DNA from: Rhytidiadelphus loreus | Lineage: Eukaryota; Streptophyta; Bryopsida; Hypnales; Hylocomiaceae | Length of the DNA: 64,000 bases | Direction: 5' to 3' | Assembly: GCA_947034895.1 (NCBI GenBank) | Contig: OX344763.1 | Span: 21,111,001 to 21,175,000, forward strand | Shown: positions 2,680 through 64,000 of the stretch, one piece after another | Position numbering within the stretch: the stretch's first letter is position 1 | How the letters are laid out: each line of letters starts with the position of its first letter | Notes under the pieces: generated by a model | The model's database searches: none | What the model saw: only the letters and a program-made list of their open reading frames with translations | Told to the model about the DNA's origin: nothing | Translations under genes and position numbers: made by a program

Positions 2680-2921
2680 TTCCATTTGATTGGAATTATC
2701 TTTTAATCATCATCATGTAGACCCTAACATGTCTATTGTACCTTTGACTATGAATTTTTGTTTATAATCATAAATATTTTATGCCTATTATGTTGCTTCA
2801 TTTTCACTCTCATATTATAGTTTTTTGTTTTATTTAAAAGCATTTTTTTATTAATTTTGGATTTGATTCACATTCTGTAATTTGTTCAATCTTGATGAAT
2901 CTTTTGTTTTCCCTTTTCAGA

Positions 2922-5900: not shown

Positions 5901-7278
5901 AGTTTGCAGTTGTCAGCGGGGAAGCCTCGCATGTTTTACGGAGTGCCAAATGCTAGGCCTGGAGTGGACCTAATCTTTTTTGATTGCCCGGAGAACTTGC
6001 CTGTACCGGGACTATCCTCTCCCCCAACAAAGGTGCCGACTTGGAATGCTGACTTGGAGAATGAGGCTCTACAAGTGGCATTTCAATTCGCTTTCAAGCA
6101 TCTACAAGACCATGGATGCATGATTGTATTTTACTCATGGAGTGCTGATGTTAGGGGCGATATTGCAGGATTGTGTGAAACTTATCGCATGGTGAAAAAG
6201 AAGGAGTGGTGGGGCATGAATCGCCTCCACTTGACTTCAGCACTGGACACTAGTTCTACGATAAATTCAATCAATAAGGCTCTTGAAGTTGTAAATGTCT
6301 TTTTCTAATGGTTATGTTACATTTGTTTCTCATGTATATTTTGTTTCCATGAGTGCAGACTCAGAGGTTTGGAATCACCCTCCTCGTCAAGGACTTTGGC
6401 GACAAAGGGAAGTCCAACTTCACTTTCAAACGCACATCGCTTATGAAGAGTGCTGGTGTGGACATCGGTCGAGATGACATGTTGATGAACTACACCAAGG
6501 AGGATGACATGGCAATGAATGATGGAAAACCATGGCAGGGGGCACGTGAAAAGGATCCTCGATTGTTTCAACTCCTCATCGAAGCTACAACCGGTGAAGG
6601 AGATTTGGTTCTTGATTGCACCGCATCAACAGGTGATTTTTAAATTCAATTATTGTCCATTCTGCACGTTTTTGTGAAAATCATCAATTTCACTAATATT
6701 TTATATTCCCTTCACTTCAGGTGCATCAGTTACCGCTTGCCGTGGAATTGGCCGCCACATTGTGGCTTTGGAGGAGAACATTGACATTTTTTATGCTCTC
6801 CTCAAACCCATGAAGAAGCCTACTCCAACTTCGATGAAGGCCCCATCTAAACCACCAACACTTAAAGTACATGATTCGGATGAAATGATGGTGGTGCCTC
6901 GGAAATTTGCTCGGAGGGGAAAATTCAGTAAGTAAGTTTGCATTTTCTTTTAGCATTTTCTTTTATCGATATCTTTGTGTTTTACAAATCTAACATTCTA
7001 TCATATCCAATTGCAGCCATCGAGGATTGACGTCGTCAAGTATGATGCTGAACAATCAGAGTCTTTTCTACAGTCCGGAAAAGACTTTTGATCTTCCACC
7101 CTATGCAGAGCACATGGCATCAGCCTTTGCGGATTTTGGTTGTCATAAACCAAAACGCCGTAAAGATACATATGCTCTCAATGTGTTACAATTCATAGAT
7201 GGATCAGCATCTGAGGGTAGAGAGACTTCAGAATCCTCTACTCATGAAGATTCAGCGACTGAGTCTACTGCAACTTAG
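2922..7278 (+). pseudogene. ParB-like / amino-methyltransferase fusion gene, copy A (disrupted)
   Basis: Ten exons are inferred: 2922-3584, 3695-3887, 3994-4188, 4279-4494, 4633-4868, 5095-5806, 5910-6290, 6359-6632, 6721-6931, 7017-7278. All introns are GT/AG, and phases agree from exon 2 to the TAG at 7276-7278. In order the product has an acidic leader, a ParB-like region (PMPMVRPTLS, then VYDGNHRRLAWMN), an unknown middle, a basic coiled coil (aa ~520-580) with a KRKA patch, and a methyltransferase-like C-terminus (LIFFDCPEN, WWGMNRLHLTS, DCTASTGAS, LEENIDIF), then a Ser-rich tail. Two lesions are visible in exon 1. A TAG at 3224-3226 stands where copy B has a Gln codon. A frameshift lies at about 3485-3510, after which homology to copy B resumes in another frame; exon 1 is 663 nt where phase requires 2 mod 3. 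Motif I reads AST where copy B has AGT. It is probably a pseudogene, although the later exons are clean. An upstream 5' exon is possible but unproven. Confidence 0.8.
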
Positions 7279-32700: not shown

Positions 32701-34046
32701 TTTTCCCTGTCAAACCCTCATCAAGTGAGCATACAATGTTACACTTTAAACCGGCACGCCAGGTGTAACACTGGTAACCAGAAATAACATAATCAATATC
32801 TACACTCAAAAGTTCAAATTGAGATTTCGTGCTCAATCCTCAATTCAACGTTTTGAGTGAATTCTTGTTGAACAGCTACTGAAAATGCATCGTAATGAGC
32901 TGAAGTGAAATACATATCCTAACTTGACATATTAAGATAATCAAAGATGTACGGCGACTCCAGAGAGAGCCAGTAAGCATTTCTGGATCAAACCATGCGA
33001 GTGATAGCTTGTTGGAAACCTACGCACATAGTGCTTCTAACAAGCCATTACCTGTGTTCTAATTCCCATTGAAGTTTTCTGGCAAGCGTTCACAATGACG
33101 ACTAGCAAGGCTTTCACACCCGGCGTTCCAGTATAAAAAACAGACTCTTCAACCATTTAACAATCAATAATATTGTTTTTTCTGCAGGTCTGGTGTTCCT
33201 TTAACTCATGTGAATGGATTCTACTACTACGGTAATCACACCTGAAACCATCCGAATAAGCATTTGAGCATGGTTCCTCTTCCTAAGTTGACTTAGCTTT
33301 TGTTAAGTCTTGCTAAGAGCCCAAAGCTTGACTCCAGATTCTTTTAGCATGCATTCTTTGGACACCCTATAAACAAACTATGAATTTTCAAAGTTCTGAA
33401 AATAAGCGTACGCAAAATCGACCTCATCGACCCAACGCTCTTAGGCTCTCATGAATAGAAGCTGTATGTTTTAGCTTCGATCGGTATTGCAAACAGGTAG
33501 CAGGTCGCAATTAGGTATAGTTACGTTACAAATTCCAGGAGATGTACACTTTCTAACGACAAAGCGAAGATTCTAGAATCTCCATCGAAAATCGTCAGAC
33601 TGTTTTGTTTTTTCTAGAAGCTACACTGATTCGTCCAATAGTGCGTGTGACACTAATGTCCCAAAGTAACACTATTTTGAATTATTTTTAGAGTTGAAAT
33701 ATTACTATTTTGTACCAATTTCAACAAAAACAAAAACAAATTGGTGAAACTAATTCTCCCCCTCATTAATAGGACAAATCAGTGTAGAGTGATAATATCG
33801 ATTCAAGTGATTGCTTAGCCTAGAACTCTCGAATGGCAAAGAGCATGGCGACATAGAATTCTGACCTTTCTTTACGACATTGTGGTCGACACGAAGCAGA
33901 ACAACTTTGTCCTCGAGATCGGCATGTTGGAGGAGCGGCAGACGAGCGTCCAGAGGCTCCTTATCATCGTGCTCGTGGTCATCCACCACGTATCCCACTC
34001 GCAAGCCGTTGCCATTGCCATCCTTTGGCTTCAAATACGGAGCCAT
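29712..34046 (-). CDS. PGK: Phosphoglycerate kinase, divergent, 8 coding exons
   Basis: Phosphoglycerate kinase converts 1,3-bisphosphoglycerate and ADP to 3-phosphoglycerate and ATP in glycolysis. Exons from 5' to 3' are 34046-33866, 32706-32634, 32429-32174, 31679-31521, 31114-30920, 30773-30636, 30539-30307 and 29898-29712. They sum to 1,422 nt (473 aa plus TGA) with unbroken phase and GT/AG at every junction. Family landmarks in order are RVDHNVVKKGKILDQYRID, MSHVGRPYD, LPNTRWFAGEE, VNDAFGSWQPHTSTYHV, IVAGAKYDTKIGPL, GGGDTLQEF and FTGGGTVLKVLEE. The N-terminus (MAPYLKPKDGNGNG...) adds about 40 residues over typical enzymes and does not look like a plastid transit peptide, so a cytosolic location is inferred. 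Several conserved positions differ: RVDHNV for the usual RVDFNV, SWQPHT where AHRAHS-like sequence is usual, and VNAVMG for WNGPMG. It is head to head with the C1D-like gene. Family membership is firm; normal catalysis is less certain. Confidence 0.93.
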
Positions 34047-35282
34047 CGACGCAATCAACTGGCTCCTGTCACTTTGTTTCTAACAGTAAGCACACAACAT
34101 GGAAATTAGTCACAAAGGTTGAATTCATCTTTCTAGACCAGTCGTGCATTAGATTGACCTACAACTCTAGGACATTGCAATATATCATACAAAACTTGAA
34201 AGCATACTCTGAAAGTGACAATAGTACACAACCAACATCAATTTCCTCAGTTCAAAATAGCACAGACTATTTTTGAGCTTAAATCCGAATTGTGAAATCA
34301 ATCTAATCTAACTAACTCGCGAGAACTACTTGCATTAGATTGACCTCCAATTCTAGGGTTCAGCAAGCAGTTCACCCAAAACTTGAAAGTACTCGATGGA
34401 ACTCGCAAAAGTAGAAGACCCAACATCAATTTCATAAGTTAAGAAACACAGGACATATTTGCAACGAAAGTAAAAGTATGGAACAGCTAATCTACGCATA
34501 CTAGACCAGTCATGCATTAGATTTACCTCCAATTCTAGGGTTCTGCAAGTCTAGGTCACCCAAACTTGAAAGCACACGGTGAAACGCGCCATAGTACAAA
34601 AACCAACAAAATAGCTCGATTTCCTCAGTTCGAAAAACACAGGAAATAATATTCGCACTGAAAGCAAATCAAGAAATTATCCTACGCAATCGCGAAAACA
34701 GCACACTCTAACTAGAAACGCAATTGCGAAGACGTACGGAAGAAAATGTTCGTTAGAACTCTCACCACAGCAACACTCCACACCAACGATCCGAAGCTAC
34801 CTCACCAAATGATCAATCGACAAAGAACAATTCAAATCAGAAAAAAAGAAATAGAATTGCGCACCACAAAGAGTCTGCGACTGCGAAGCTCTTATGCACC
34901 TTGAGGATCGTCTTCCCCAAGCAATTGAGCTGTTACGCCCCCCGCAAGTCCGCAGCATCGGAACCCCACACCGCGCGGTCTCGGTTACGCGCGCAGTTTG
35001 GCAACACTATCCCTGGTTTCTTTTGCCCTGCGCGCGGTTCCACCCTCAGTTGGGCTGCCAGTTTTCTCTGATGATTAGGCAAAGGTAGGTGCATTCGTGG
35101 TCTGTGCTCCGCGTCTTCGATTTTTCTTACCTTGCGGAGTCACGGAGTGGCCAGAGATTTTGTTCTCCTTTGCATGTGGCGAACTGCCTGGAAGTGAGGA
35201 GCGCAAGTTTCGACGTTGGTTTTAGGGTTTAGGGTTTAGTGGGGTTTGGGGGAATTTTTTTTCCCCCCCAGAGTGACTGGCT
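34047..35282. promoter_or_regulatory. Shared divergent promoter region (PGK / C1D)
   Basis: The 1.24 kb between the two divergent start codons holds both 5' UTRs and the promoters. It turns GC-richer from about 34870 to 35280 than the surrounding DNA. The kinase 5' UTR is probably spliced, since an AG acceptor-like site sits just 5' of its ATG near 34080. A TGGGCT site II-like motif is at 35051-35056 and a telo-box array is at 35220-35240. At 34090-34650, phrases such as ATTAGATTGACCTCCAATTC and ACTTGAAAG recur three times, a loose ~200-bp tandem repeat. Confidence 0.55.
35220..35240 (+). promoter_or_regulatory. Telo-box array upstream of C1D-like gene
   Basis: TTTTAGGGTTTAGGGTTTAG contains two complete telomere-like units and lies 43-63 bp before the ATG. 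Telo-boxes (AAACCCTAA), often with site II TGGGCY motifs, are a known promoter signature of plant translation and ribosome-biogenesis genes. Here they fit the predicted rRNA-processing role of the downstream gene. Confidence 0.7.
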
Positions 35283-41433: not shown

Positions 41434-41688
41434 TCACCGCTTGGGGATTCGGAACTGCAAGATGAAAGTGACGAAGCTGTGGGAGTCGACGATGGCCTGC
41501 CAATGCCGGCACACGCAACTGGCGCGCACCGCCGCCTTGATCGGCATGCGGGCGAAGATGTGCTCCATAATCTCCTCGCTCAAGCTCCCCCAATCCACAG
41601 CGGGGATGGAGATGGACTCCTCCGACGGCTGGGGCTTGGAGGAGTGAAGCTCGCGCGGGACTCCCAACTGAAAAATGTATTCGTACAT
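41434..41688 (-). CDS. F-box protein, first exon or truncated gene
   Basis: The frame starts with ATG at 41688 (MYEYIFQLGVPRELHSS) and runs to a TGA at 41434-41436, 84 aa. Residues about 33-72 form an F-box: W..L.EEIMEHIFARMPIKA followed by VRASCVCRHWQAIVDSHSF, with the canonical L, I, C-V-C-x-x-W and S-x-x-F spacing. F-boxes bind SKP1 in SCF ubiquitin ligases, and the substrate-binding C-terminal domain (kelch, LRR or other) is missing here. A possible donor (AAGCG|GTGATT) just before the stop could join a downstream exon. Otherwise the gene is truncated. The upstream region to 42850 may hold its 5' UTR. Confidence 0.6.
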   Translation of the reverse strand: MYEYIFQLGVPRELHSSKPQPSEESISIPAVDWGSLSEEIMEHIFARMPIKAAVRASCVCRHWQAIVDSHSFVTFILQFRIPKR

Positions 41689-41879
41689 TTTGGAGAAGTC
41701 GAGAACGAAGCTGCAAATGAAGAAAGCAATTGTGGAAATCGAGCGATCAATTGAAGGTAACTAAGTTAAAAACTCTGCATTCCGTTGGCTAGGGGGGTGA
41801 AACAAATCAATCCCGGTGTGTGCAGTCAGTGATCTCAACACTGCTCAAGAGAATCTCCCAGGAATTTACCGAAACCCGA

Positions 41880-46810: not shown

Positions 46811-49800
46811 TGACCAAGCAAATTTTAGTCATGGACCTTGCACCAAACATAGCTTATTTCAATTGCAAATTAACGCTACAACTCAATTAGTGCACGGTGA
46901 AATATTAGTACTTGGTGAATTAGATGTCTAAGCTATTTTCAACACTTAAATTTATTTATTTGGTGTGCAAAAAATTGCATTCTTAGAGTTTCTAAAATCC
47001 GCTTTTGCCTCCAAAGTCCCAACAAAACTTAGGAATTGTGCTCAAATGTTCAAATTCTAATGACTTTTAATGATTTACATTAAGTTGTGTTTCCACTAGT
47101 GTTGGAAATTGTTGATGTATCATCAAATTCATTCTCTAGATTCTTTATTTTTTATAAACAAAACTATATTACCTATTAGGCCTGAATTTATGTGGAAAAA
47201 TGAAATTAATGTGATTATTGATGTTATTTTTTTAAATCATGTTAATTATAAAAAATCTCCAAAACATTTGTTTGTTTGGGAAGGAGTATAAGCCACTTTG
47301 TATATTTTACATATAAAATAATGGTTTTAATTTTGAAATTCAAAACATAAACATGTTCAATAGTATAGTAGGGCTTTAAGTCTTTGATGCATAGAACTAA
47401 AAAATGCAATTAAATGCTAAATGTATAGGTATTTTAGATTTTAAATTGAATTAAAAACTAAACTTGAACTTTGATTCTTAAGTTGACTTAAAAGCCCTAA
47501 AAATCATATTAAAGATGAAAAGAAGTTTTGACCAAAAGGCATCCTCTATGTGCATGTTTGAACCTCAAAGGTTCAACACATGAAAATAAAATGTCTTTGG
47601 TTAATTTTATAATTGAGACTATCTAATATTGATTTGCTTAATAGTGTTCAAGAATTTAAAACTACAAAACACTCTATATTTAGCCATTTACCATGGCTCG
47701 TTTAATAATGTTATGTGCATTCTTTGGTAGGTTGAAATCTCCTTTGATTTGTTATCATAAATATAGTTTGTTTTTTAATAAAAAAAGTAGTGGTTGGACA
47801 TTTTAATAATAAAAGATATTTTCATTTTGTTAAAGACTATAAAACCAAACTATAATTTTTTTAATTCATTATTAGCATAATTATAACAAATTCTAGCACA
47901 AAATCTATTAAAAAATTGAATAGTTGCATAGAATCATCTATTCTATATAGCTATTTTAGGTAGACATTTGTGAAATCATCAATGCAAAAATATGGAATTT
48001 GTGAAGATATTTTAGCCACACATTTGTGAAAATAATTTGCTAAATTCATTTTCTAAGTTTCCCGCTAAGTTTTGTCATTAAATACAAATGTATGAGTACC
48101 GACTACAATTGCATGAGTCATTTTGAATATATTTATGTATATAGCTACATAGGAAAAATTGTAGTAAGAAACCTAATTTCTTAGTGGGGGAGGAGGGTGA
48201 TACCCCTAGTGATGCTTCCAACTATAAGCTTGAATTTTGGAGGGAGTGCACACTAGGAGTATTGTCCCCCCCTCCAGACAAAAAAACTTACACTAAAGAG
48301 ACTTTAGTGATGGCCATGTCTTTAGATCATGCAATTCAATGTATTGTACGTAGTCATTTGAGAGACCTAGAGCACATGGTAAGATTTTCATGATTTGTTT
48401 CGAAAACAATTCAAGTGACAATCCTTGGATCAAAATCATTTTAGGTAATCATTTTTTTGGTATTGAAGAATATATTGTATGTAGGATGTGCAATTTTCTA
48501 TATTGATAAAGATAAGGTACATTTGTAAGGGAGACACAACTAAAACCATCAAATTTAGAAGCCACCATAATGATTAACCCCTAAAGTCCCAAGGCCATTT
48601 TTCTGTCAAAAACCACTCAAAACTGCCATTTCTACTGCGTTAGTCCAAAAAAACAAAACAAAAACTTTTTTTGGAACTGAACCGTAGGATCTTAAACTTT
48701 ACTTGTTTTAGATCATGTAGTAAACATTTCATGAAGTTTGACCGTACAGATTGAGAGATAAGAGCATTCAAAGTTGAAAAAACAAGTTTTTTTGAACACT
48801 GGACTGCAATTTTAAATGACTTTGATCTCTATTTCTGGAAAAAAATTACACTGTGGAGTTTGAATTTAAAATTTATTGTGTTGAAGAATTGAGTTGGGAG
48901 TCTAGGAAAAAAATTTCAAAAAATAAAAACTTTATTTTCATACTTCAAAAAATTGTCAAGTAGAAGTAGGTCCAAGATTGAAAGAAAAACTAAATTGATA
49001 ATGGCTCTTAGATGGGATTGAAATACAATAATCCCAACGGTGAGATTGTTCTAACAAGAAAATTTAACCTTTTCGAAAAAAAAAAATTTGAAAAAATTTG
49101 AAAATTGCATTCTGAGATGAATCCTACAAGTTTTTTTTTCCAAAAAGATTCTTAGATTGCCCGAAACATAAGATTGTTCATAACTTTCACATCACTAATC
49201 AAAGTGGAATGAATCAAAGCTTTAGATGTAGACAAAAACATTATGTTTGAGAAAAAAAAAAAAAATTAATTATTTTGAATTTTTGCAATATTTTTTGTGT
49301 TGCCCGCCGAGTTTAGTTTCAGGCTTTTTGTGGTATAACTTTTGCTTCCAGGCACCGATTGAAATAAAAATTATATTCCCACAAAGCTTATCAAATTTTC
49401 TATCTTCAAAAAAAGTTTCAAAAAATTAGGGTAAAATTTGAAATTTCAGCCCATAGGAACCTGCCTGAATTCCAAATTGTCCCCCGAGGGGACAATGGCA
49501 ACGAAGCTAGTATACGAGCATAGAGCGTGAGCGTGGAGCATAGAGTGGAGAATTCAGAGCGTGGAGCTCCTATATTAAACAACATAGAGGGAAAAAATTG
49601 ATGAAATGTGAAGTAGGATTGAAAAAAAAAATTTAGAAATTGGAAGGAGGTGGATGAAGAATATTGAATTGGTATATTTTAGGGAATAAGAGGAGAGTTA
49701 CAAATGCTCCGGTTTAGGGTAATTACATAAAGTAGATAAAAAGTGATGCAAGTGTAGTAAAGAGTAGATTTTAGAGAATAGATGGAAGTAAATTAAATTT

Positions 49801-50100
49801 TTGGCATCCAATTTGACCTTAAGAACTAGATGAAATTGGATGTTAGTATGGATGAAAGAAAATAAAAAAAGGATGGAAGTAGATGAAAATAAATGATGAA
49901 AGCAGATGAATACAATGGATGAAAGTATATGCCCGGATGGATGAAAATGAATGTTGCAATGGATGAAAATACATTACAATTTGGATGAGGAAGGATGAAA
50001 ATTTGAGATGCACGTGACTTGAAGAAGTAGATGAAACTAGGTGGAAATGTGAATGAAAGAAAATGATAAAAGGATGAGAATACATGACATAATCAGTTCA
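46811..50100. other. AT-rich intergenic DNA with palindrome and GGATGAAA minisatellite
   Basis: No convincing gene. A 21-bp palindrome at 49476-49496 has arms ATTGTCCCC/GGGGACAAT around CGA. Just downstream, GAGCGTGGAGC-type short repeats sit at about 49516-49566. From about 49800 to 50100 an imperfect minisatellite of the form GGATGAAARTANATGAAA recurs about a dozen times. A short frame at 48184-48393 has no recognisable domain. Confidence 0.5.
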
Positions 50101-50886
50101 AATTAGATGATAGGGCAAAGGACCGTGGATGAAGAAGTCATCAACAATGATTTGAATAATACCATTCTAGTGGATGAACACTTGGGTGGAAAAAGATGGA
50201 AAAATAAAGTAAAGTCATTAGAGGGGATTCAGCCCCTTTGGAGGGTTATGAGTTCCCTTGGTCTGGGAACAACCCCCCAACAGTTCCCAGTAGTTTGCAG
50301 CAATTTGCAGGTGCTGCTTGACGTGGCAAGGCGACTACCACGTCATTTTTAAAAAAAATTCAAAAAATATAAAATTCAACTCAATCTTTCATTTTAGAAT
50401 TCTCAAAAAAATAAAAATCTGGCAGTGGCCGTTCCCGGACTATTGGGGGAACAACGCTGGGAACAGGCTTGAAACGGCCCTCTTGACCCCCAAAATCTCA
50501 TCTAATGGGTTAAACCAAATTTTTAGGGGGACTAAAATCAATTGCTAGTGATTTGAATGAATAGGTGACAAGAGGGGTAGATGTGAATGGAGGTATATAA
50601 AAGCAGTGGTTTAGAAAGACATTACAATTTTCTATGTAGTACTTACTTGGAGGTTTAGGACAAACATGACGGATTCACAATACTGTTATTAAAAAAACAA
50701 TACAATAAAGCAACAAACTCTGCAATCAGAACAAGACTTTAACCATGCATCTTATTAAGGATATAAGAAATCAAGTAGTGGCCCTTGTAGTCTCACTACA
50801 ATATATAATAACATCTATATACATAAATGTTATGAAGAACACAGTTTGGCGAACTAAAAATACCCTTGTCACAATTGTGTAGTGTA
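50101..50886. other. 3' flank of MULE-like gene with inverted GGGAAC/GTTCCC and CACGTC motifs
   Basis: CTGGGAACAACCCCCCAACAG (about 50257) and GGGGGAACAACGCTGGGAAC (about 50444) flank a core with the near-palindrome GACGTGGCAAGGCGACTACC followed by ACGTCA (50319-50345). This looks like transposon end debris, but no target duplication could be fixed. Confidence 0.4.
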
Positions 50887-53800
50887 CTATAGAAGTATAT
50901 TGGAATTCAAGATTCCGCAATCCAACAATTGACGAACCTCATTGAAGCTGAAGCTTGGAGCGTGAATGAAGACATCTATAGCTAAGTCTAAGTGGCAAAT
51001 GACTACAAATAAATAATAAAGATGCTTGCAGTTGGCCCATTGCCCTCTTTTTCCTAATGCTTTCATTGCCATTTCTTTGAAATTTGGGCAGGAGCATTCT
51101 GGAAATGAACCTATAGTCAAGATGTAGTGATGGAAGTCCGGCTCCAGACCAGAGTCCATGTTGACAATGCAGCCAAAGCCAGGATGTGGAATCACTGTCA
51201 CATGACGGAGAGAGGCCTTCAATGTGAGCGCCGAAGCACAATTGTTTGCTTGTTTAACTGTAGGTGCGTTTGGATTTCTTCGAATTTTTTTACCTGCCCT
51301 TGTGCTGGGGTGCTCTGCAGGAAATGGTGGAACTTTGCAATTTGATACGTATGATTGTCCATCATTGACTCCAAAAAGTCGTCGGGGTGAAATTTCTGGG
51401 CGTTGAGGGAGACGGAATCCAGCATTTTGAAGTTGCAGTACCTCTGTAGGTGTTAAGTTCGTTCCAGACTTCACTGGCCAAATGGTAGGCACATCAGGTC
51501 TCGAAAGAACCCACTTCCTCCGCGAACCCTTCACGCATCGCTCGATGTCATCGTTGCAGAAGAAGAACTGGTGCCTCTCAATTTTATTTTTCTTGTAATT
51601 GTTCATGTTGCCGGTATAAGAGGGTGCAACTGTCGCCTTGTTGCATTGCACAATCTTAGCAACACATTTCTTCTTTGTCACGGCCTGCAAGGCAAAGCAC
51701 GCTTTTGCCGAATTTTTACACAAGCGAGCAATGTGCCACTCAGCCTCATCACATACTGTTTCTTCTACATGAATCACTCGAAATGGCTCGGAAGTACTAG
51801 GTGCGGTTGTGCATCCGATAGAAAACTCCACCTCTGCATGTTCTTCGCTCTGGAGTGGGACATCTTCAGAGATCGAATCCAAGTGAATAAGTGTTGCACT
51901 TGCTCGGGTGGTCTTGACTAATGTTTTAGGCCTGGAAAAGTTGACTTTATCGGGTCGATGTGAATCGAATTGCGATCCTGGCGGTAAATTAGGCATACGG
52001 CTTTCAGACCCGAACACTTCTTCACCTTCGAGATGGAGATCCCGCGTGCAATACATACCAACTCCTGGGACCGTTGCCATGGCAGCATTTAATCCTTTCG
52101 GATTTCCAGTGCGTTGAGTATATCATTGTGCTACACGAAGCACCAGCTCTTCTCTTCCCGGGCCTGTTCCTGGGTTCTCACCCTTCAAAAATTGATAATA
52201 ACGAACCATCTGCATGAACGCACGCACATAATCATCTACAGTTGCCACGTAGAGGTCATTCCCACGGTTTCCAGATTGTTGTAGCCATTTGTTGTGAACT
52301 GTCTCGGCCAAATTGCAAGACGGCATCTCCGCCAACTCTTCAGTGGACAGATCCTGTAGTGTATCACATGTATGAGGATAAATGACAAATAACAAAGTCC
52401 AAGAAAAGGAGGTGTTCATTTTTAAAAGAAATCAATATAGCAACTAGAAGACCAACAATGCAACAACCAAATGAAGCCACAAGAAATCAAAATCAGGTCA
52501 CTCATTTTAAAAATTAAATTAGGATGACTAGAGGGACTCATATATAGAGTCTTGGTTCCCCTCAAAATGTCACAACCAAAAAAAATATTATCCAAAAAAA
52601 TCTGAAAAAGTGCCTGAGATCCACCGCCGGCAAATCCCTGTCATAGGGGGTGTGCTCTTTCAAAGGTCCTCTCGGCCCCGAGAGGACTTTGGGATAGAAC
52701 GACATTGTGCACATCAATACATAGAGTATACAAAGAACATTATTTTATATCATACGAAAGATTGAAGGATCTATAGAGGGTCATGGAGCGGTTTTGTACA
52801 GACAAGGTAAATAAAAAAGTATGAGGCACTTACCATGTGCATAAAACCTCCCCATTGCCTATATCGGAAGTGCCAAAATGATAACCACAAATCCAATCGT
52901 TGAACCCCTTCAGATGTTGTTGCTCCAGAAGAGTGCCACCAAGCACGAATGGCGTGGTAGCGAATCTCTGAATCAGTCGAGGAAACGGCATCTTTATATT
53001 GCTTGCACAACCTCCGGTGTTGATCTTGCATGTCAGCCCGAATATCTACTTTTGTGTGCTTCTCCATTGACTGAGTCCAGTGAAATAGGCACGTGCGCTC
53101 TCGGTTGAGCATGGGTTGTGATGGATCACCGGATCCATAGATTTTCCTAACTGCATTCCAGTTCGCTTGTGCACTATCTGCCATGAAACCCTTGAAATAC
53201 GGTAAAGGAATACCATGTCTTGACATCACTGCGTTTAAATTTGTCCAAAAATGACTTTGAGCAACCGTATCTTCAGATTGCATATCACACACTACAACGG
53301 TCATCACACGGCAGTAGATTGGATCATAAACATGGCATGCTAATGTTGTCCACTCCTTAACTCGCTTGACATGATCAAACATCATCCAAGAGTCTTGCAA
53401 GTCACCACCAGGCTGCATTCTGGTTACCATGTCTATGCCACTACCTGGACCGACTTCAGACATTTTGAACACATAAACCTTGTCTGTCTCAGAGCCTTGT
53501 CCTGGAAATTTGTTCTCCTGTATGTAAGCCCAATTGCTACATCCCCTTAACTTCGTTATGCTATCCATAACTCCGAAGCGTCGAAAATGCTTAAAGGTCG
53601 TAACCTCGTTTCGAATGCTAGGTGAACTCATGAACTTGCATTTCTCTAGGATTGGCACAAGCTCGTCTAATCCAAACTTTGTTGGTGTTGTTCCTTCAGC
53701 TCGAAGGAGCATCTCTCCTACGAGCTCCTTGCTGGCCTCTAAGACTATAGATGAATTTGTTGCTGCTGGATTCCTTTCAACTTGGTCAAAAATCAATGAT

Positions 53801-54945
53801 TTAGTCTTGTTCTTGAAGTCACGATAGTCACCATCTTTCACTGGGTGAGAGTGTATTCCAAAGTGGACACATGCACGACGCATGTCGCACTTCCCAACAA
53901 CATAGTATATTCTTGCTTGGCAGCTTGCAACACATGTTGGAATAAATGAACAAATCTTGCAAATAATAGACGAACCAGGAGGAGGAGTACATGAAACCTG
54001 AAAGGGAGTAGGAGAAGACCCATCCCATTCAGTTTCGTTCACGATTGAAACACGGTGCTTCCGATGGAGGTAGTCACAAGAGGAGTTGTCACAACGAAGG
54101 TGACCCACGCATGAAGCTAATTGAAAAGTTAGTCCATCCTCGTTCTTGATATTTGTTGTATGAGTATTGGCCCAAACATGACCGTCGTGGCGTCTCTCCA
54201 TTCCGCTTAAGAGCTTCGCCTGAGAATCTGATGTAGACAATCCAAGGGGCGGTAACTCAAATATCACATCACCATTAAATATTGGTGGAACAAAGTCGAC
54301 CTGTTGAATAGGAATAGAACTATAATCAACCTTCTTGAAGGGATTCCGAGATCCTTTACTATGACAGAGCTTCCGAAGATAAGGAATGATTGATAACCCT
54401 ACACAATTAGATTCTGTAATTGAGACTTGGAAAGGCACGGAAGAGGTGCTAGGGGCTTTAGATAGAGGAGACACACTATGTTTCAATAGTTTCCTAGGAG
54501 GTGAGAAGTCTTCTGAGTCGTCACTCTCTAGTGCTATGACATCTATCCCAGGCTCAATCTTTACACGAGTAGGTAGGCGATTGTGGAGAATTGTAGAGGT
54601 AGTAATTATAGGAACACCTTCGCTAGACAACGGCACAACAAGTGGTTCAGGCAATCCATACGCTATGTATTTCCCTATAGGCAAATGCCACTGACGAGGA
54701 GAGCTTTCGAAAACATGGTCTTGACCTATTGTATGAATTATGGCACCTGTAGCAGAGTCAAAAACTTCTTCATCAATATGTATAGTCCTCTCCAACAACG
54801 AGAACCGAACACTCAATCGGAATGCACTAACCACAGCGAATCCTTGGTCACCAACAAGAAATGCTATAGGCACACTCTCTCCATCCGCCCTCACCAGTGC
54901 AATTGAACTAGACAACATGATCTCCCCACTTGCTAGAATTGACAT
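50887..54945 (-). pseudogene. MULE-like transposase with FLYWCH-like and SWIM zinc fingers, one nonsense codon
   Basis: Two exons: 54945-52834 (704 codons from ATG) and 52353-50887 (489 codons), joined in phase 0 by ATG|GTAAGT and CTACAG|GAT. Mutator-type transposases cut and paste DNA. Visible parts are a long N-terminal region, a Cys/His region around aa 295-400 (CDNSSCDY, CKICSFIPTC, ACVHFGIHSHP) resembling the FLYWCH/WRKY-type finger of MULE proteins, and a DDE-like core (VVVCDMQSED near aa 554, GFMADSAQANWNAVR near aa 590, RTCLFHWTQSMEKH near aa 618). Near the C-terminus there is a SWIM finger (ECSCPNF ... WANCKHLYYL). A TGA at 52125-52123 interrupts an otherwise open frame; the 14 codons after it remain in frame up to the next ATG (52080). 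It is probably a recently inactivated transposase. No terminal inverted repeats were found around it. Confidence 0.82.
52666..52687. repeat. 22-bp palindrome in MULE-like intron
   Basis: Arms GTCCTCTCGG / CCGAGAGGAC around CC. The same CTCTCGG..CCGAGAG core occurs at 62151-62168 in an intron of copy B, and as TCTCGGTCCCGAGA in the minisatellite at 57.5-59.5 kb. Confidence 0.85.
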
Positions 54946-57309
54946 TATCTTGGCACTACATCAATAAGTCTACGGAGAAGATAGTAATCTCAACAATAAG
55001 AAATGCTTTATGATGCAAGGGATGAATGGGTCCAACATGTAATGAATTCAAATATATTCAAATGTACGTGCCTTACATAGGAAAGGGAAGAAGTGGCGGC
55101 CATTAAAGGAGAATGATGGGAACTACTTATTGACAGCAAGCAATTACTGTGGTTAAAATTTTGCATGCCAACAGACACCACTACGAAATATATATTGGAG
55201 TATTAGTTCCATTATTGGGTTCAAATACATGTTTGAAACCCCTAAATTCAAGAATCACAATATTCCATACATGAATGAAACCATAATCAATTCATCCTAT
55301 TAATTAACGTTTGTACAATTCCTTCCATGACAGGTAATAGATGCTTGAAATTTATGCCTCATTACTCTATTATAGTGTATCATGCTTTTACATTTTAGTA
55401 TATCATCAAGTGGTTGCCTTTAATGTCCACTAGTTATCATCTCATGAAATTGTATTCAGTCCCCATTATTAGCTTCTGAAATAGTAAGTGGCATTGGGTA
55501 AATGTCAGATGTACTTTATAATATATTCGGGAATAAGAGCATTTCCAACAGTCTGCGCGAGGTGGAAGCGCCAAACTATTGGAGATCGTGTAAATATGGC
55601 CCCAAGGGGGCGGCACATTGCCAAGACCCTAGCACCCCCCATGTTGCAAGCTGCGTCAGAGGTTGTTTCGTCAGGAGTTCAAGAAATAAGAAAGAATGTA
55701 ATGCAATAAAATCGGGCACCTTTGGGCAATACTGTTGGGCTACAAGTGAGGCACGCCCCCCAAAAACTGAGCAAATGAGTTGGCTCCCAAAACTGGGAGT
55801 TCTTTTGAAGGGTGGTTTTGGAAACTTGTTAGTAGCTCTTGCTTCTTTTCTTTGTTCTCCACTTATTTTAAATTCAAAGAATTTGTTTATAAATAATTTT
55901 CTTTATTCTACTATTAAAAAAATAATTCAAAAAAGGTATTATTTATTTTAAATGTAAAACAAAAAAAGAACTTCATATAAAAAAAATCATTTACTTTATT
56001 ATCCACTTATATTTTTAGGACCATAAGTTATAATTTTAATACAAAATAAATAAATATAATTAAGTTTCTTTTACTTTGAATTAATTTTTAAAAATAGATA
56101 AAAAAATTTACTTTGAATTCTCTCTAATTTTTTAGCATTTTTTGTGGAATATGTTGTGATTTGTCACTAATGTCACTAACCCCCCAGAGGGGACTTAGTG
56201 ACATTAGTGACAAATCACAACATATTCCACAACTTTTGAATGAAGGGACCAAATCCTCTAAGACTTTGCGCATATGTTCAAGCGTATGAGGTCCACATCC
56301 ATGCCAATTTTTGAAAGCTTTAGTCACTTTTAGAATATTTTACAATTTGTTGATTATTTTCATTTTCAACCCCAAAATGAATAAGAGTGGGGGCTAACAT
56401 GTCCAATTTCTTGTGCAAAGATGCTTGCACAAAGACCTAGGCAAGCATTTTTCTTGCAATAAATCATATTTCTGGATGTTTTGAAAGTTTTTAAATGGAG
56501 TAGGATGATAAATTATAGCTTCATTTTCAGATGTATTAAGTCATGAATAGGACGGTAAATGGTTCCATCATAGACTGTCTAGAATGCAGGAGCATAATAA
56601 AATATCGTCATGTACTACATAATGGATTATGAGCCTAGAGGGTCAATTTAAATGCCGGTGTAAGTTACATATATATTAGAATGAGGCAAGAGTGCCCAAT
56701 TGCCCTCACAGAAATGTTAAAGGAATATAAGGACCGTCAGCTTGTTGAAGATTACATTTAGGAGCCGAATTTATTATTTTTTGTGGATATAATTTAGAAG
56801 TCACCCATGAATGGGTTTAAACATTACGGATAAAATACACACATACCATTAAATCAGATGGAAATTCATTTGAAAGTGAAAAATGATCCAACACAACCCT
56901 AAATACCAATGTTAAATACCGCATCAACTTTTCAATGAGTTATGAAATAAGAGAAACAACTGTAGGGCATTTGAATCCCATCAAGAAGGCCGAAGTAAGC
57001 CTAACCTGGTCGCCTATGGAACTCAACGGTGTGTTGATCAACACATGTGCCTGCATGACCAAGTGCCACGTGTAGCTGAAGCACGTATCTGGTTCTGAGA
57101 TGATCCACCTGAGAAGGTAAACCCTAGCATGCAAAATCGCCTCGCAAGGAACCCTATCTTTCTTCCTCGTTTTCATGTGGTTCTCCACCTTTGAGGCCAT
57201 TGCAGGTAGACTTGTCGCATTTGTTCATGCACAGGGGCTCGGGAGTTGAATTCAGTTGATGCTGCCGTGGGCATTTGCAGGCTTCCTATCGACCATTACA
57301 GTGTCCGTA
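54946..57309. other. Intergenic DNA between MULE-like gene and copy B
   Basis: Contains a GC-richer island at about 55530-55830 starting GAATAAGAGCATTTCCAACAG, a phrase typical of plant MITE ends, but no matching opposite end was found. Also contains the perfect hairpin at 56142-56232. A minus-strand frame at 56940-57200 (86 aa) lies head to head with copy B but has no recognisable domain. Confidence 0.45.
56142..56232. repeat. Perfect inverted repeat, 38-bp arms
   Basis: The left arm 56142-56179 (starts TTGTGGAATATGTTGTGATT) is the exact reverse complement of 56195-56232. The 15-nt spacer CCCCCCAGAGGGGAC can itself pair partly. A transcript of either strand would form a long perfect hairpin. 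There is no ORF, no polyT terminator and no known small-RNA sequence that I recognise. Confidence 0.92.
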
Positions 57310-60300
57310 ATGGCAGAGCGGATCTTGAGATCCAGAAAAGGTCAGGCCACCATTGTCGACGTTGGAGAAACTGCGACAGAAACACAAGATCAGCAAGAAG
57401 AGGTACATTTCGTCCAACTTGATACTCATCACATTTGGATATTGTGGTAATAAATGGGTATCCAAATATCTCCAGTAATAGTAGACAATTGTGTTTGGGT
57501 GTCGGGAATGATGTGGTTGAGTAGGGCATTGAGGAATTTTGTCCCGGTCTCAGTCTTGGGGAAGGTCAAGCTTGCAAGACGATCTTGCCCCATATTCTTT
57601 TTAGAGTGTGGGGCATGTGTATTTGTCTATCGGGATTGTCGTGAATGAACAGGGCGTTGTGATACTCACGGCCCATCTCGGTCCAGAGACCGACTCGAGG
57701 GAGGCATGGCTTGCCCCATTTTATTTTTGCAATTCGGGGCGTATGTTGATGTGTGTTGGGTCTGTCGTGGTGAGCAGGGCACTCTGGCACTCAAGCCTTG
57801 TCTCGGTCCCGAGATCGACCGGGAGGGAGGCATTGCCTTTCCCCATATCATTATTTTATTGTTGGGTGTGTGTATTTGTGTAGCAGGGCGTGTGTGTTTG
57901 TGTGTAGGGCTGTCGTGGTGAGTAGGGCGTTATGGCTCTCAGGCCTCGTCTCGGTCCTGAGACCGACATGGAGGAAGGCATTGGCTTGCCCATATTATTT
58001 TTTCAGTTTGAGGCGTGTGTTGATTTGTGTCAGGGTTGTGTGTACTTGTGTGTTTGGATTGTTGCAGTGAGCAGGGAGTTGTGGCATTCATGCCCATCTC
58101 GGTCCTGGGGAAGGTCGGGGTGGCAGGACGACCTTGCACCATATTATTTTTGGAGTACATGGCGTGTGTTGTTAGTCTGGGCTGTCGTGAATGAGCAGGG
58201 CGTTATGGCTCTCAAGCCTTGTCTCGGTCTCGAGATTGATAAGGAGGAAGGGATGGGCTTGCCCCATATTATTTTTTCAATGTAGGGCTTATGTATGTGT
58301 GTGTCGGGGTTGTCTACTTGAGCAGGATGTTGCGGCTATCAGGCCCCATCTCGGTCCCGAGACCAACAGTGAGGAAGGCATGGGCTTGCCCCATATAATT
58401 TTATCAATGCAGGGTGTGTGTATTTGTGTGTCGGAGATGAGTGTGTTTGTACATCGGGGTTGTCGTGTTGAGCAGGGCGTTATGGCACTGAGGGCCCGTC
58501 TCGGTACCGAGACCGACCGGGAGGGAGGCTGCGCCTTGCCCTATATCATTATTTGATTGTGGGGCGTGTATTGATGTGTGTTGGTGTGTGTGTATTTGTA
58601 TGTCGGGGCTATCAAGTTGAGCAGGGCATTGTGGCTCTCAAGCCTTGTCTCGGTCCCGAGACCGACAGGGAGGAAGGGATGGGCTTGCCCCAAATTATTT
58701 ATTCAATGCAGGGCGTGTGTATTTGTGTGTCGGGGCTGTCAAGTTGAGCAGGGCGTTGTGGCTATCAGGCCCCATCTCGGTCCCGAGATTGACAGTGAGG
58801 GAGGCATGGGCTTGCCCCATATCATTATATTATTGTGACACGTGAATTGTTGTGTGTCAGGGTTGTGTGTGATTTCTGTATTAAGGCCTTATTCATTATA
58901 ATTGGACAATCGACAGATTTTGAGACTTTTTCCCTAAAACAATTGTATGGATTTATCCTCGAGTCGAGGATAAATTGAGACTGCAACCTTTTGGCAATGA
59001 AAGGTTTCTTTACATAGTAATATTTTAAAGTCTCAAATTTCCAGATAGTCTCAAAATTGAATAGTTATGACTGTTTATCCTCGAGTCGAGGATAAATTGA
59101 GACTGCAACCTTTTGGCAATGAAAGGTTTCTTTACATAGTAATATTTTAAAGTCTCAAATTTCCACATAGTCTCAAAGTTGAATAGTTATGACTGTTTAT
59201 CGTTGAATAGTTATGACTGTTTATCCTCGAGTCGAGGATAAATTGAGACTGCAACCTTTTGGCAATGAAAGGTTTCTTTACATAGTAATATTTTAGAGTC
59301 TCAAATTTCCAAATAGTCTCAAAATTGAATAGTTATGACTATTTATCCTCGAGTCGAGGATAAAATTGAGACTACCATTTGTCCAAATATAACGAATAAG
59401 GCCTTTATTGGGGCTGTTCGGTGAGCAGGGCGTTGTGGCACGGAGGCCCTTTCTCGGTCCCGAGACCGACCACGGCAGATGGAAAGGCCTACTCCGTAAT
59501 TGTGGTTTGCTTTGCCTACTCGTGGAGATACTTAGTTTCGGTTCTAGCTAAACAATTGATCTCTTGTTGATTTGAAGTAATACTAACATTTGATATGATT
59601 TGTATACCGAACCAGGTGGGCATGGCGTCAGCAGAAGTGCAGACCCACGAACGTCAAGTTGATAATATATTAGAGATGCCCATAGACGATGGCAAAGAAG
59701 TTAATGTCATCTTCATGCAATCTGAGCGACAATTTGTGAGTATAGATAATGTAATTAGGGACATAGATGAGGTCTCATCGTATTCAATTGTTGATCCAGA
59801 CATTCATATTTTGTGTTGCAGACAGTATAGGTCATTAAGTTTCCAGTGCATTCCTGATTTGTGAGTTTGTGACGAGGCTTCCCTGTAATTTTACATATAT
59901 TTTTTGTTCAATTGTTACATAATTTTTTATTTTAGAATATGACTCCTATAGATTTACAACTGTCATTTGTGTATCTAATCGATGGTCGTGTATTGTATTT
60001 TGAATATCACAGGAGATTGCACAGGCACAATCCATGGCCAAGCCACATCCTGCCACTATTTCATCAGTAGTGGAGGTTGATGACGAACCTGAAAATATTT
60101 CAGAGTCTGATTCAGATGACAATGGGACCCTTGGAGTGTTGAAGGACGCCTTGGAAGATGACATCCGTAAGACCCAAAAGATTGACATTGTGTCTATTCT
60201 ACATGGATTGAGATTGACATCCACGGACGCGTCTCGAATAAAGATCCCATTGTGCCGAATGATTCCTATGCCCATGGTCCGCCCGACTCTATCTTGCGAT

Positions 60301-63300
60301 TTGACACTACTCGAACACCAGTTCAGTGGTGGATACGAAGAGGGGGCTAGAGTCTTCTACGTGTCAATCTCAAATGAGGAAGGGCATACCGGGGTGTTTT
60401 CTGCTGAAGAAAAAGAAGCGTGGGGGCCAATTTGGAATTCTGTCAATGACGAATTCAATTCATTTCTGAGGTCCCAACCTGTTGTGAAGCATCTTGTGGA
60501 CTATAAATTCTACGTGTGTGATGGAAATCACAGGAGGATTGCATGGATGAACCACATCAAACGGTTGCACTCAACGGAGAAGGGGTGGCATATCTCGGTG
60601 GACTCCATTGTGCTGGATATGGCAAACCGAACTGGATTGGCAATGCAAGCAATGCATAACATAAACAAGTAATGCTTATAATCTTTATTTTTACATTGTA
60701 TACATGTTTCAATCTTGTGAATACTATGGAAATTTTGTATTCCCACAATTGACTTCATGATTGTTTATACAGGCAAACGGAGAGTTATCACGTGAAGACA
60801 AATCTCGTGCATACCCTATACCGTGTTCAAAAGTACGGAGTTATGGACCTTGAGAAGTTTAAAGATCTTCTAACAGCCGATGAAGTGAAGCCATGCCAGA
60901 ATAATACACGTGTAAAGTGGTACAACATGGCACTTGAGGTTTTCACGTCTTTCATATTCAAGGTAAGATTAATTCAAGTACTTGAATCATTTCTAGGAGT
61001 CGTCTAAGTATATTTCTTCATTCTATTAACATTTCCAATTGCATGAAATGTGTGTCTCAGCAAGAAATCTCGGCGGCGGCGGAGATTGCTATTCGAAAGT
61101 ACAAGGAAGATACCCCTTCTGATGAAGTGACAGAAAAAGGTGTTGCAAAGGCGATGAGGGCATTGATAAAAGATTCCACTGACAAGTACTATAAGAAGCT
61201 ATCCAAGATTGTTTCAGTCGCCAACCCAGCTCTTGGACCCGAATGGCTAAAAGAGGTTTGTTGGAATTCATCAAACAATACTCATCATGAATATTAATTG
61301 GAATTCAAATGCACTAACTAGTTTGGCATTGCATCTCACAGATCGAAAGGCATTGGAATCTGTTTGCTACTCCCGAGTTGAGTCTTGAGAAGTTGCAAAT
61401 GATATCAACTTCAAATGCTACATCAGAGTCAAAGGTAAAGTGGCTGAAGTGGATGAACTCATCTGGACCTACTAGAGAGGCCCGCTGTTTTCCACCACGT
61501 ACGGTGAATGAAGAAAAATTAGCGCTATTTTTAGCGAGGGCATGCTGGTACTCAGGGGTAAGGACATCTTGTTATCATTCTAACATTTTTCCAAGACATC
61601 ACAGTTTTTTAAAATTTAGACTGCTCTTTGCGTTTTCCATCACTTTACTTCATTTCCGGTCAATACTACTTCATATGAAAATTCATTTTTGATCATATAT
61701 GCTTGCAGTTGGAGGACGCTGCTACTGAGTTGTATGACACAATTATTCCTTCGGATAATATTCCAATAAATATGGCAATTCCCACTGAGCCGGTAACTCT
61801 AAAAGAATATTTAGAGGGTTGGAGAATGAAGGTTTGGGATATGGCGTTCACGGGCATGTTCAGAGGGGGGGACGCATTCAAGAAGTCAGACACCTTCAAG
61901 GATTACAAGGGGGCAATGCTTGCAGTTCATCGGCTAATTTTCAGGTTTCACTCACTCCATTATTGGATTGATTGATATGTTATAATGATACCAACATCAA
62001 ATTGCAGGAGTCATAAGTCTATTTTTTCCTCATATTACTTTGTGCAATGTTCATTAGTGTACGGTGATATCTTCTTATTCATTAATATCGAGACTATTTT
62101 TCATTCACAAGTCATGTCTCTTTGTGCAAGATGATCACCCTATTTGGGTTCCTCTCGGGACCGAGAGGACCTTTCATGTGTCCTAGAGTCTGCAACATTG
62201 GATTTCTATTGTAAGTACGAAAACGATCCCATATTTACTTAGAATAATTATTAGATGACTTATTCTTTTCCGGGTTTAATTGAACAGGTATTTCATGTAT
62301 GAGTTGTATACCAAGAAGGCCATTGCCAAACAAGATTTGCCGCCTTTTATGACGACTTGGTTGGACAGATCAAAAGACGACTGCATGTTCTCAGCTTGGC
62401 AACTACGGAATTGGACGACTCCACATCTCCAAGCCTGCCCTTGGTATCTTGAATGCAATATTGGGTCCATTCCACTTGAGGAGGCTGATCTTTTCAAGTC
62501 ATTGAAGGAGAACGCTCCTGTGGAGGCAGATTTTGATGAATTCACCGGACTTGATGCTGAGGCCCGTGCTAAGGCTATCACAAAACGAGATGCAGTTGAC
62601 AAAAAGAAATTGGAGAGACTAGAAGAGGCAAAAAAGAAGACAGAAGACATCAAGGCGAAGAGGTTGGCCTTGAAGGCTGAGAAGGAGGAAGAGAAGGCCA
62701 ACAAGAAAAGCAAAAAAAGGAAGGCTGAGACTGCCATGCCAGCTACAAGTGCAGCTGACTTGAAGGACACCTCCTCGAATTTTTCTCTCACACAGGACCG
62801 CTTGGTGCATGGCTTGACGCCCACTGTTCTGAATTTGGATCATGCCCATGACATCGACGAGTGCATCTTGAACATTTCATTGCGAGCTCTTCCCGCGGAC
62901 GAAAAGGCGATGGACAACGTCGAAGCCTTCATAACAATGGTATTTGCATGATTCTGTTTGGCATATTTTGTATTCCTTGTAACACAACGTAATGAAACTT
63001 GTATTACTTGATTTCTAACAGTTCAAATTTAACATCTCCCTCCAATGAACTTTTTTCATTTTCTCACTATCCTCTTGTCATTCAAATGTTTTGGTGCAGC
63101 ATGCCACTGACAAACAAAGGTATTTCGATGGTGTATTCAGTACAAAACCTATGGTGGATTTGATAATTGTCGACATTCCTGAAGGACTTCATGTACCTAC
63201 CGTCTCGGCTCCTCCTGGTCCTATTCCTACTTGGAACCAATTTTCAGAAGATTGGTTGGTCCCAATCTTCGACTTTGCTCAAGGTTACCTTCAAGACAAC

Positions 63301-64000
63301 GGAGGTCTTCTTCTAATGTATCCATCTCCTTCTAAACCACATAGAAGCCAACTTCTTGGGTGTTGCAAGGAATACGGATTCAAGATTCTTCTTGACTGGT
63401 GGGGCATGAACCATCTTCACTTGACATCACCTATTCATCCAAAGAAGACAGTACTAGCCCTTTTCCATCCAATCATAATTTCTTTTCTATCTAAGATTAT
63501 GAACATTCAAATCTCACTTTTAATTTTGTGCAGACTCAACGCTTCGCCATCTCGCTCGTGGTAAAGAACACTGGCCCTAAAACTAAGGACGACTATCCTT
63601 TTCAGTATGTTCCATCGCATGCAAAGGTGGGTGTTACTGTAGGCAAAGACGATTGCCTACGAAACTTCTGTTTTGCAGAAGACGTCACCATGAATGGTGC
63701 CAAACCATGGCGGGGACCTCAGGAAAAGGCATCGGGATTCATGGCCATGCTCGTGGAGGGATGCTGTGAACCCGAATCTGTTGTAGTTGACTGCACAGCA
63801 GGAACAGGTATTTTTCCCAATATTTTGTTAATTCTTGGAAATTTTCTCACACCCTTTAGTTTTGATTGACATCCTCTCATGGTTTGGCATATGTTGGAAA
63901 TGGATGCAGGAACAAGCATTCAAGCATGCCGAGCCACTTGGCGTCATATTTTGGCATTTGAGGAAGATAAGGCGATCTTTGATGCACTTATCAAACCTGT
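57310..64000 (+). CDS. ParB-like / amino-methyltransferase fusion protein, copy B (runs off window)
   Basis: Exons are 57310-57402 and 59616-59735 (both inferred), 60013-60668, 60773-60962, 61061-61255, 61342-61557, 61709-61944, 62288-62939, 63100-63450, 63534-63807 and 63910 onward. All introns are GT/AG and the frame is open for about 1,024 codons. In order the protein has an acidic leader, a ParB-like region at aa ~150-265 (IPLCRMIPMPMVRPTLSCDL, then CDGNHRRIAWMNHIKR), an unknown central part, a Lys/Glu coiled coil at ~666-725 with KKSKKRKAE (nuclear-import-like), then a methyltransferase-like C-terminus. That part has LIIVDIPEG near 810 in the motif IV position, GYLQDNGGLLLMYP, WWGMNHLHLTS, and DCTAGTGTS near 990 followed by an acidic FEEDKAIFDAL, the motif I-II arrangement of beta-class N6A/N4C enzymes. 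Motif IV is D-x-P-E, not D-P-P-Y. The function is unknown: DNA or RNA modification, or a non-catalytic role. The 3' end, probably a short tail exon as in copy A, lies outside the window. Confidence 0.8.
57480..59490. repeat. GC-rich minisatellite with ~126- and ~149-bp units
   Basis: Units contain GAGCAGGGCGTTGTGGC, TCTCGGTCCCGAGACCGAC and GGCTTGCCCCATATTATTT. The TCTCGG landmark falls at about 57549, 57676, 57801, 57949, 58097, 58222, 58349, 58499, 58649, 58775 and 59452. Spacings are therefore about 125-127 or 148-150 bp. The last gap becomes about 153 once the 521-bp MITE and its 3-bp duplication are removed. The many frames across it are repeat artefacts. It lies inside the proposed first intron of copy B. 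Confidence 0.88.
58884..59404. mobile_element. Tourist-like MITE with TTA target duplication and internal tandem repeats
   Basis: The TIRs AGGCCTTATTCATTATAATT and (reverse-complemented right end) AGGCCTTATTCGTTATATTT extend about 26 bp through GGACAA. TTA flanks both ends (58881-58883 and 59405-59407), as expected for PIF/Harbinger-type MITEs. Inside, a 122-bp unit is repeated, each headed by the 23-bp palindrome TTTATCCTCGA-G-TCGAGGATAAA at 58952, 59074, 59220 and 59342. The third interval has an extra 24-bp duplication. Its insertion splits one minisatellite unit. Confidence 0.88.
62151..62168. repeat. 18-bp palindrome in intron of copy B
   Basis: CCTCTCGG / CCGAGAGG around GA, within the intron between 61944 and 62288. 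That intron is the longest of those downstream of exon 3. It shares its core with 52666-52687 and with the minisatellite. Confidence 0.8.

Follow-up and report, generated by a model that had tools for sequence, protein, structure and literature searches.

A ParB- and methyltransferase-like gene of a probably Mutator-like mobile element in the moss Rhytidiadelphus loreus, with subfamily-specific palindrome arrays that look like a self-recognition device

Phage ParB-methylase fusions (PMC12704722) and self-recognising transposons such as VANDAL are already known separately. ParB-N6_N4-methyltransferase fusions, which bring together a ParB-CTPase fold and a PF01555-type domain, are described as frequent in phages, and sulfiredoxin as the commonest eukaryotic representative; the accessible text of that survey describes no eukaryotic fusion (PMC12704722). 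The gene considered here lies in a 64,000-nucleotide stretch of the Rhytidiadelphus loreus genome (assembly GCA_947034895.1, contig OX344763.1, positions 21,111,001 to 21,175,000; hereafter the window). It belongs to a repeated element of 16.15 kb whose copies share their ends, and it is placed head-to-head beside a transposase-like gene. Like the phage fusions, its product combines the two domain types; unlike them, it is nuclear and intron-rich, with about 500 amino acids between the two domains of the spliced protein and D-x-P-E as its methyltransferase motif IV, and it is carried by a eukaryotic DNA transposon. No report that joins such a fusion with self-recognition in a plant transposon was found in the open-licence literature, name searches of eukaryotic protein databases not being included.

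By analogy, the nearest working parallel is VANC of the Arabidopsis VANDAL elements, which belong to the Mutator-like elements (MULEs). According to the available parts of the VANDAL studies, VANC21 binds YAGTATTAY motifs arrayed in the non-coding regions of its own family, where DNA methylation is lost, and VANC6 has other motifs (PMC5735166; PMC10398659). As in the window element, the transposon of these texts combines a transposase with an accessory protein, and its introns and upstream regions hold short motifs in arrays that are family-specific and evolve through tandem repetition (PMC5735166; PMC10398659). However, the accessory protein of the window element is of the ParB plus methyltransferase type, with no Pfam match to DUF1985 or DUF287 up to E 10, its motifs are two-fold palindromes unlike those of VANDAL, and anti-silencing is only proposed for it. 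The fungal DNA transposons with TET/JBP dioxygenases likewise bear a captured DNA-modification enzyme that is thought to aid escape from silencing, although the enzyme class is another and neither site arrays nor a ParB domain come up in the accessible part of that report (PMC12730594). Bdelloid N4CMT and the N4-methylcytosine (4mC) enzyme of Marchantia are also bacterial-type amino-methyltransferases in eukaryotes (PMC8885841, PMC12344493); as described in the available text, both belong to the host, and the bdelloid enzyme reads SPPY, as opposed to the D-x-P-E motif, ParB fusion and mobile multicopy element seen here.

The exon chain of the gene and its paralog in the window are as follows:

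57310-64000, plus strand: ParB-methyltransferase-like gene, 11 exons within the window, the last one continuing beyond it
57310-57402, 59616-59735, 60013-60668, 60773-60962, 61061-61255, 61342-61557, plus strand: exons 1 to 6
61709-61944, 62288-62939, 63100-63450, 63534-63807, 63910-64000, plus strand: exons 7 to 11
60013-60668, plus strand: exon 3, ParB-CTPase-fold domain (DGNHRR)
63100-63450, plus strand: exon 9, methyltransferase-like motif IV (DIPE) and subsequent strands
63534-64000, plus strand: exons 10 and 11, motif X-like stretch and motif I (DCTAGTGTS)
2921-7275, plus strand: copy A, a decayed paralog found by tblastn, 48% identical to the window gene over the ParB exon

All ten introns are of the GT..AG type with consistent phases, and the spliced frame runs through 1024 amino acids without a stop. 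An earlier note on this DNA had joined PMPMVRP, CDGNHRR, D-x-P-E and DCTAGTGTS segments into one spliced frame, all of which are present in it, and had named a paralogous pair, whose second member is copy A (2921 to 7.3 kb), now a pseudogene with one in-frame stop and one frameshift. Eight introns of copy A and the window gene lie at matching places with equal phases, one donor being shifted by 30 bases. Past the window, exon 11 reaches about 64087, and a further frame, similar to the tail of copy A, has its end at 64468; the final splice is tentative. The gene is not a product of chance, since many homologous exons occur elsewhere and its ratio of nonsynonymous to synonymous substitution rates (dN/dS) is 0.46 against the window copy (151 synonymous and 253 nonsynonymous changes, as the sum of 7 non-independent comparisons with near-identical copies). 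A bacterial contaminant was also considered, and was ruled out because the gene is intron-rich and sits on an 85-Mb contig of a 407-Mb assembly. The encoded protein combines a ParB-CTPase-fold domain with a beta-class-methyltransferase-like domain whose catalytic motif is altered; the fusion posited by the earlier note is borne out in its ParB half by fold and in its other half by a controlled profile comparison, the structure model of the latter being poor.

In the structure model of the ParB half, the N-terminal NTP (nucleoside triphosphate)-binding domain has the ParB-CTPase/sulfiredoxin fold. DGNHR is present in 108 of the 120 homologous exons among the matches listed, and its arginine, as read from the fold match, would be the conserved P-motif (Box II) arginine, which the available text describes as important in this fold (PMC12704722). 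A sequence search of solved structures with the ParB alignment gave no match, and tblastn against phages with the ParB part returned a single chance match at E 7.

The METHYLTRANSFERASE half matches Pfam PF01555 at E 0.001, a DNA methyltransferase family of PHROG at E 6e-6 and, as a two-row profile, a solved methylase at E 1.6e-4. Comparison by hhalign of two family rows with four methylases gave 98.6%, and that of seven family members with five methylases gave 99.0% (E 8.6e-18) over the domain, as against 0.0-1.0% for eleven controls (one reversed, ten column-shuffled). The motif order is IV-X-I, as in the beta-class amino-methyltransferases (PF01555). The canonical motif IV, (D/N/S)PP(Y/F/W), with an aromatic residue expected to stack on the target base, is absent: none of the 56 aligned rows (55 listed proteins plus the window exon, at least one row being misaligned at the motif) has the catalytic aromatic. 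Most rows read D-x-P-E (43/56), with D in 55, P in 47 and E in 51 of them. Among seven members from the same genome, copies A and B included, six have D-x-P-E, and all seven carry the motif I DCTAxTG, in which Ser or Ala replaces a Gly in six. Since D-x-P-E is kept across the aligned rows, it is a family feature rather than the decay of a single copy. In bdelloid N4CMT, replacement of the Ser and Tyr of SPPY abolishes methylation, according to the available part of that study (PMC8885841); hence canonical amino-methylation would not be expected here. Judging from its motifs, the domain quite probably binds rather than methylates. An AlphaFold2 model of a partial methyltransferase part (protein P0002 of Ceratodon purpureus, without motif I) is poor, with a predicted local distance difference test (pLDDT) score of 61, and its Foldseek list was uninformative, with no useful structure match. 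Phage tblastn with the methyltransferase part yielded weak matches to ordinary methylases only, the lowest E among the matches listed being 0.02.

The element that carries the gene comprises these features:

49499-64000, continuing 1647 bp to 65647, no strand assigned: mobile element of 16149 bp, delimited by blastn against 7 near-identical copies
49503-49551, plus strand: imperfect inverted repeat, about 50 bp, at the left terminus, with its partner at the right end, beyond the window
52791-54945, minus strand: transposase-like exon A, with a D..D..CxxH core and N-terminal Cys/His clusters (motifs named by eye)
50890-52431, minus strand: exon B, likewise transposase-like, ending in a SWIM-like C-x-C..C-x-H pattern (by eye)

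Similarity among the copies, mostly 96-99% and lower in the intron 1 repeats, spans 49493-49499 to 65646/65647 and then stops. The left end is common to five of the seven near-identical copies, the right end to five and both to four; of the others, two have one end cut or beyond the fetched stretch, and one (c4_10.5) lacks both ends and the transposase. The window element is flanked by the direct repeat GGGACAATGG and two other copies by CGGTGAACCT and TTCCAATG, respectively, target duplications of Mutator-like elements being about 9-11 bp. Locally aligned as an inverted repeat, the element ends reach a score of 46, the highest among 200 letter shuffles being 34. Separately, a palindrome in the flank, ATTGTCCCCCGAGGGGACAAT at 49476-49496, adjoins the element and overlaps the direct repeat.

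Two genes are recognised in the element, the transposase-like one and the ParB-methyltransferase-like one. The two-exon transposase-like gene is conserved in six loci, the window locus counted; a nonsense codon in exon B of the window copy (52123-52125) is absent from four other copies and not resolved in the fifth. Its exons have dN/dS values of 0.39 and 0.50 against the window copy, so that the ParB cargo gene has, by this rough measure, been preserved with much the same strictness as the transposase. The ParB part has at least 205 matches in the assembly (407 Mb, 489 contigs), 150 of the 2247 first-look candidates having been scored. The 16.15-kb repeated element starting at 49499, including the minus-strand gene at 50.9-55 kb, had been overlooked by the earlier note; its suggestion of an element-borne, transposon-associated protein is now the likely answer, in view of these matches, the shared ends, the flanking repeats and the transposase-like gene. 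The ParB-methyltransferase-like gene probably serves as the accessory gene in a family of Mutator-like DNA transposons of a plant, probably a moss. Six ParB-gene loci of equal score with a 348-amino-acid frame suggest, in addition, a further recent wave of amplification, this time of a diverged subfamily.

Relatives of the family point in the same taxonomic direction. Two-row domain alignments retrieved 56 proteins with the methyltransferase part and 267, 120 of them listed, with the ParB part. One of the 56 (P0056) is a weak hit on an ordinary methylase of the PF01555 type. The single relative with an organism name is the partial hypothetical protein P0002 of Ceratodon purpureus, with the tag M758_UG251900, whose M758_UG part may, we presume, denote the moss U sex chromosome. 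The 22 relatives viewed as letters are mostly single-exon frames extending into introns. A whole-protein search of a set of 5.8 billion proteins gave no match, probably since the family members listed there are mostly exon-sized frames, and no family member was found in viral contigs. The family is probably a moss family.

Within the element, the non-coding parts hold short palindromic sites, and a second class of sites lies near copy A (no strand applies):

52666-52687: 22-bp palindrome of the TCTCGGNNCCGAGA class, in the transposase intron
57676-59465: in ParB-gene intron 1, nine palindromes of the TCTCGGNNCCGAGA class, six of them exact and three at 1 mismatch
62150-62169: 20-bp TCTCGGNNCCGAGA-class palindrome, in intron 7 of the ParB gene
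287-1970: five sites of the AGTCGGNNCCGACT class upstream of copy A, three of them exact and two at 1 mismatch

Over the window and 10 kb more, there are eight exact copies of TCTCGGNNCCGAGA, all within the element (one in the transposase intron, six in ParB-gene intron 1 and one in intron 7), and twelve copies at up to 1 mismatch, every one again inside it. Genome-wide, there are 1576 occurrences of TCTCGGNNCCGAGA versus 16 of the reversed pattern, and 571 of AGTCGGNNCCGACT, which was picked because of copy A, versus 5; an unrelated control palindrome of equal design gave 13 versus 12. The two classes have a common TCGGNNCCGA core and different arms, and each site-bearing locus has only one of them (11 of 11 loci with both sites and gene pieces): the TCTC class is found in nine loci (window element B, L028-L030, L033-L037) and the AGTC class in two (copy A, L043-45). 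An acidic, serine-rich frame at 2161-2676, between the AGTC-class sites and copy A, is possibly a 5' exon of that element.

The association of sites with genes was judged from fetched loci only. Six site clusters, the first ones on contig C1, were taken without regard to gene content: four have long matches to the transposase and/or the ParB gene, a fifth (L033) has only a 32-amino-acid ParB-gene fragment, and the sixth (L032) has neither. Conversely, three of four diverged ParB-gene loci picked by identity alone have sites at 1 mismatch (ten in L028, five in L029 and seven in L030); those of L028, which has no exact sites, lie in a tandem array of 96-bp units. The recurrent placement is between the two divergent genes and within the transposase intron, with further sites in ParB-gene introns or the 3' flank, as in L045, where sites lie on the 3' side of that gene. 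The transposase-intron palindrome is exact in the window, L029, L034 and L035 and has 1 mismatch in L037, a result that is unbiased only for the window and L029, L034, L035 and L037 having been fetched for their sites; the intron of L043 holds the other class, and the 75-bp intron of L028 has no site. When five transposase introns are aligned, pairs are 36-51% identical (90% for the close relatives L037 and L029), and the arms beyond the core differ in letters while palindromy is kept. The sites of the window element are internal, none being less than 3.1 kb from the left end or less than about 640 bp from the right. Tandem arrays containing sites, with units of 96 to 171 bp, are seen in L028, L029, L037 and the window element. 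The array at 5247-8676 of L037 consists of twenty 171-bp units, most with a palindrome, and is satellite-like with nucleosome-like spacing. An apparent nested insert at 58885-59395 in ParB-gene intron 1 has inverted ends (AAGGCCTTATTC..) and 122-bp repeats, each with a 23-bp palindrome, the number of which appears from alignments to vary among element copies.

Taken together, the subfamily-specific palindrome arrays look like a self-recognition device of the element. The parS site is a two-fold palindrome bound by ParB dimers, and the combination here of two-fold palindromes, class-specific arms, location in non-coding parts of the element and an encoded ParB-fold protein suggests that the ParB protein is the reader. 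By this analogy, class-specific binding of the palindromes by the ParB part is probable. We tentatively propose a transposon-borne ParB/parS-like system, in which a clamp with a repurposed methyltransferase would load on the element's palindromes, spread and form a chromatin domain that escapes silencing, arms and protein having coevolved into at least two specificities in one genome. The ParB domain, dimeric and probably with NTP, would bind the palindromes as ParB binds parS, and the bound protein would spread over element DNA; the spreading ParB part would recruit the methyltransferase-like domain, which would bind DNA and/or S-adenosylmethionine without canonical amino-methylation. The bound protein would then shield its own family from host silencing, as VANC does for VANDAL, and so sustain transposase expression. 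That the protein protects or activates its own family is, on the VANC analogy, a tentative suggestion.

Several results weigh against this proposal or the assignments beneath it. Foldseek with the ParB-half model found no match at E 0.001 or better, and no ParB family of Pfam matches this half; the PF01555 match (domain 19.5 bits, whole protein 16.6) does not reach the Pfam gathering score of 26.7. The transposase-like protein has no Pfam match up to E 10, PF10551 included, so that the term MULE-like rests on the DDE/C2H and SWIM-like pattern, itself a by-eye reading, on the direct repeats and on the inverted ends; the flanking repeats, 10, 10 and 8 bp long, are clear at only three of the five copies having both ends. 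The window ParB gene is open across its 11 exons, and all seven near-identical copies carry one to five stops. Further, L032 has a site and no element gene in the 9 kb fetched, and L031 has neither site class in 9 kb despite an open ParB exon. Finally, the palindromes could be targets of the transposase or of a host factor.

This last point leads to the main rival, unlikely in our estimate, whereby the transposase binds the palindromes, or its promoter is under their control, while another role falls to the ParB-methyltransferase-like protein. The arrays directly upstream of the transposase gene, the site in its intron and the Cys/His clusters seen by eye at the transposase N-terminus would all fit it. 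However, the sites of the window element lie away from both ends, others are found in ParB-gene intron 7 and, at L045, beyond the 3' end of that gene, and two-fold palindromes are what ParB dimers bind at parS. It is improbable that the palindromes are mere passengers, i.e., satellite-like tandem repeats carried along as the element spreads, without any part in binding: many sites do lie in tandem arrays, which slippage could amplify, but lone sites are also found outside them, in one and the same transposase intron at four loci with poorly aligning introns, and their arms differ and yet stay palindromic.

As regards the other half of the protein, somewhat less likely than transposase binding is the reading that the protein actively methylates DNA (or RNA) and so leaves an unusual mark on the element, D-x-P-E being a novel form of motif IV. 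The retention of motif I (7/7 members) and of the motif IV D (55/56 rows) and E (51/56 rows), which makes the change itself a conserved one, speaks for such an activity, as do the horizontally acquired 4mC methylases of eukaryotes in the available text of PMC8885841. Against it stand the missing base-stacking aromatic in every row, the Ser or Ala in place of the motif I Gly in six of seven members, and the inactivity of bdelloid N4CMT after replacement of the Ser and Tyr of SPPY, as given there (PMC8885841); the DNA modification factor envisaged in the earlier note is accordingly doubtful. Its other suggestion, a domesticated host gene, would entail a single gene that came from bacteria, like those of Marchantia or the bdelloid rotifers. 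A nuclear gene rich in introns, with inter-copy dN/dS below 1, might be so read, yet the gene is multicopy and lies inside a repeated element with a transposase-like gene, and at least 205 genomic matches with near-identical copies that share ends and have flanking direct repeats make domestication highly improbable.

If the proposed ParB/parS-like system is true, a module of this kind works in a eukaryotic nucleus, and a transposon has independently invented family-specific self-recognition using a protein type known from phages. The element would offer a direct test of how a transposon could keep host silencing from itself only, for which the site arrays are ready probes, and the conserved D-x-P-E raises the question of what a methyltransferase domain does without the aromatic residue. 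Were binding and spreading shown, the ParB-methylase transposon system would be a kind of its own.

Elsewhere in the window, exon-like frames on the minus strand at 30225-34079 resemble, by eye, a phosphoglycerate-kinase-type gene, and an F-box-like frame, likewise read by eye, lies on the minus strand at 41437-41760.

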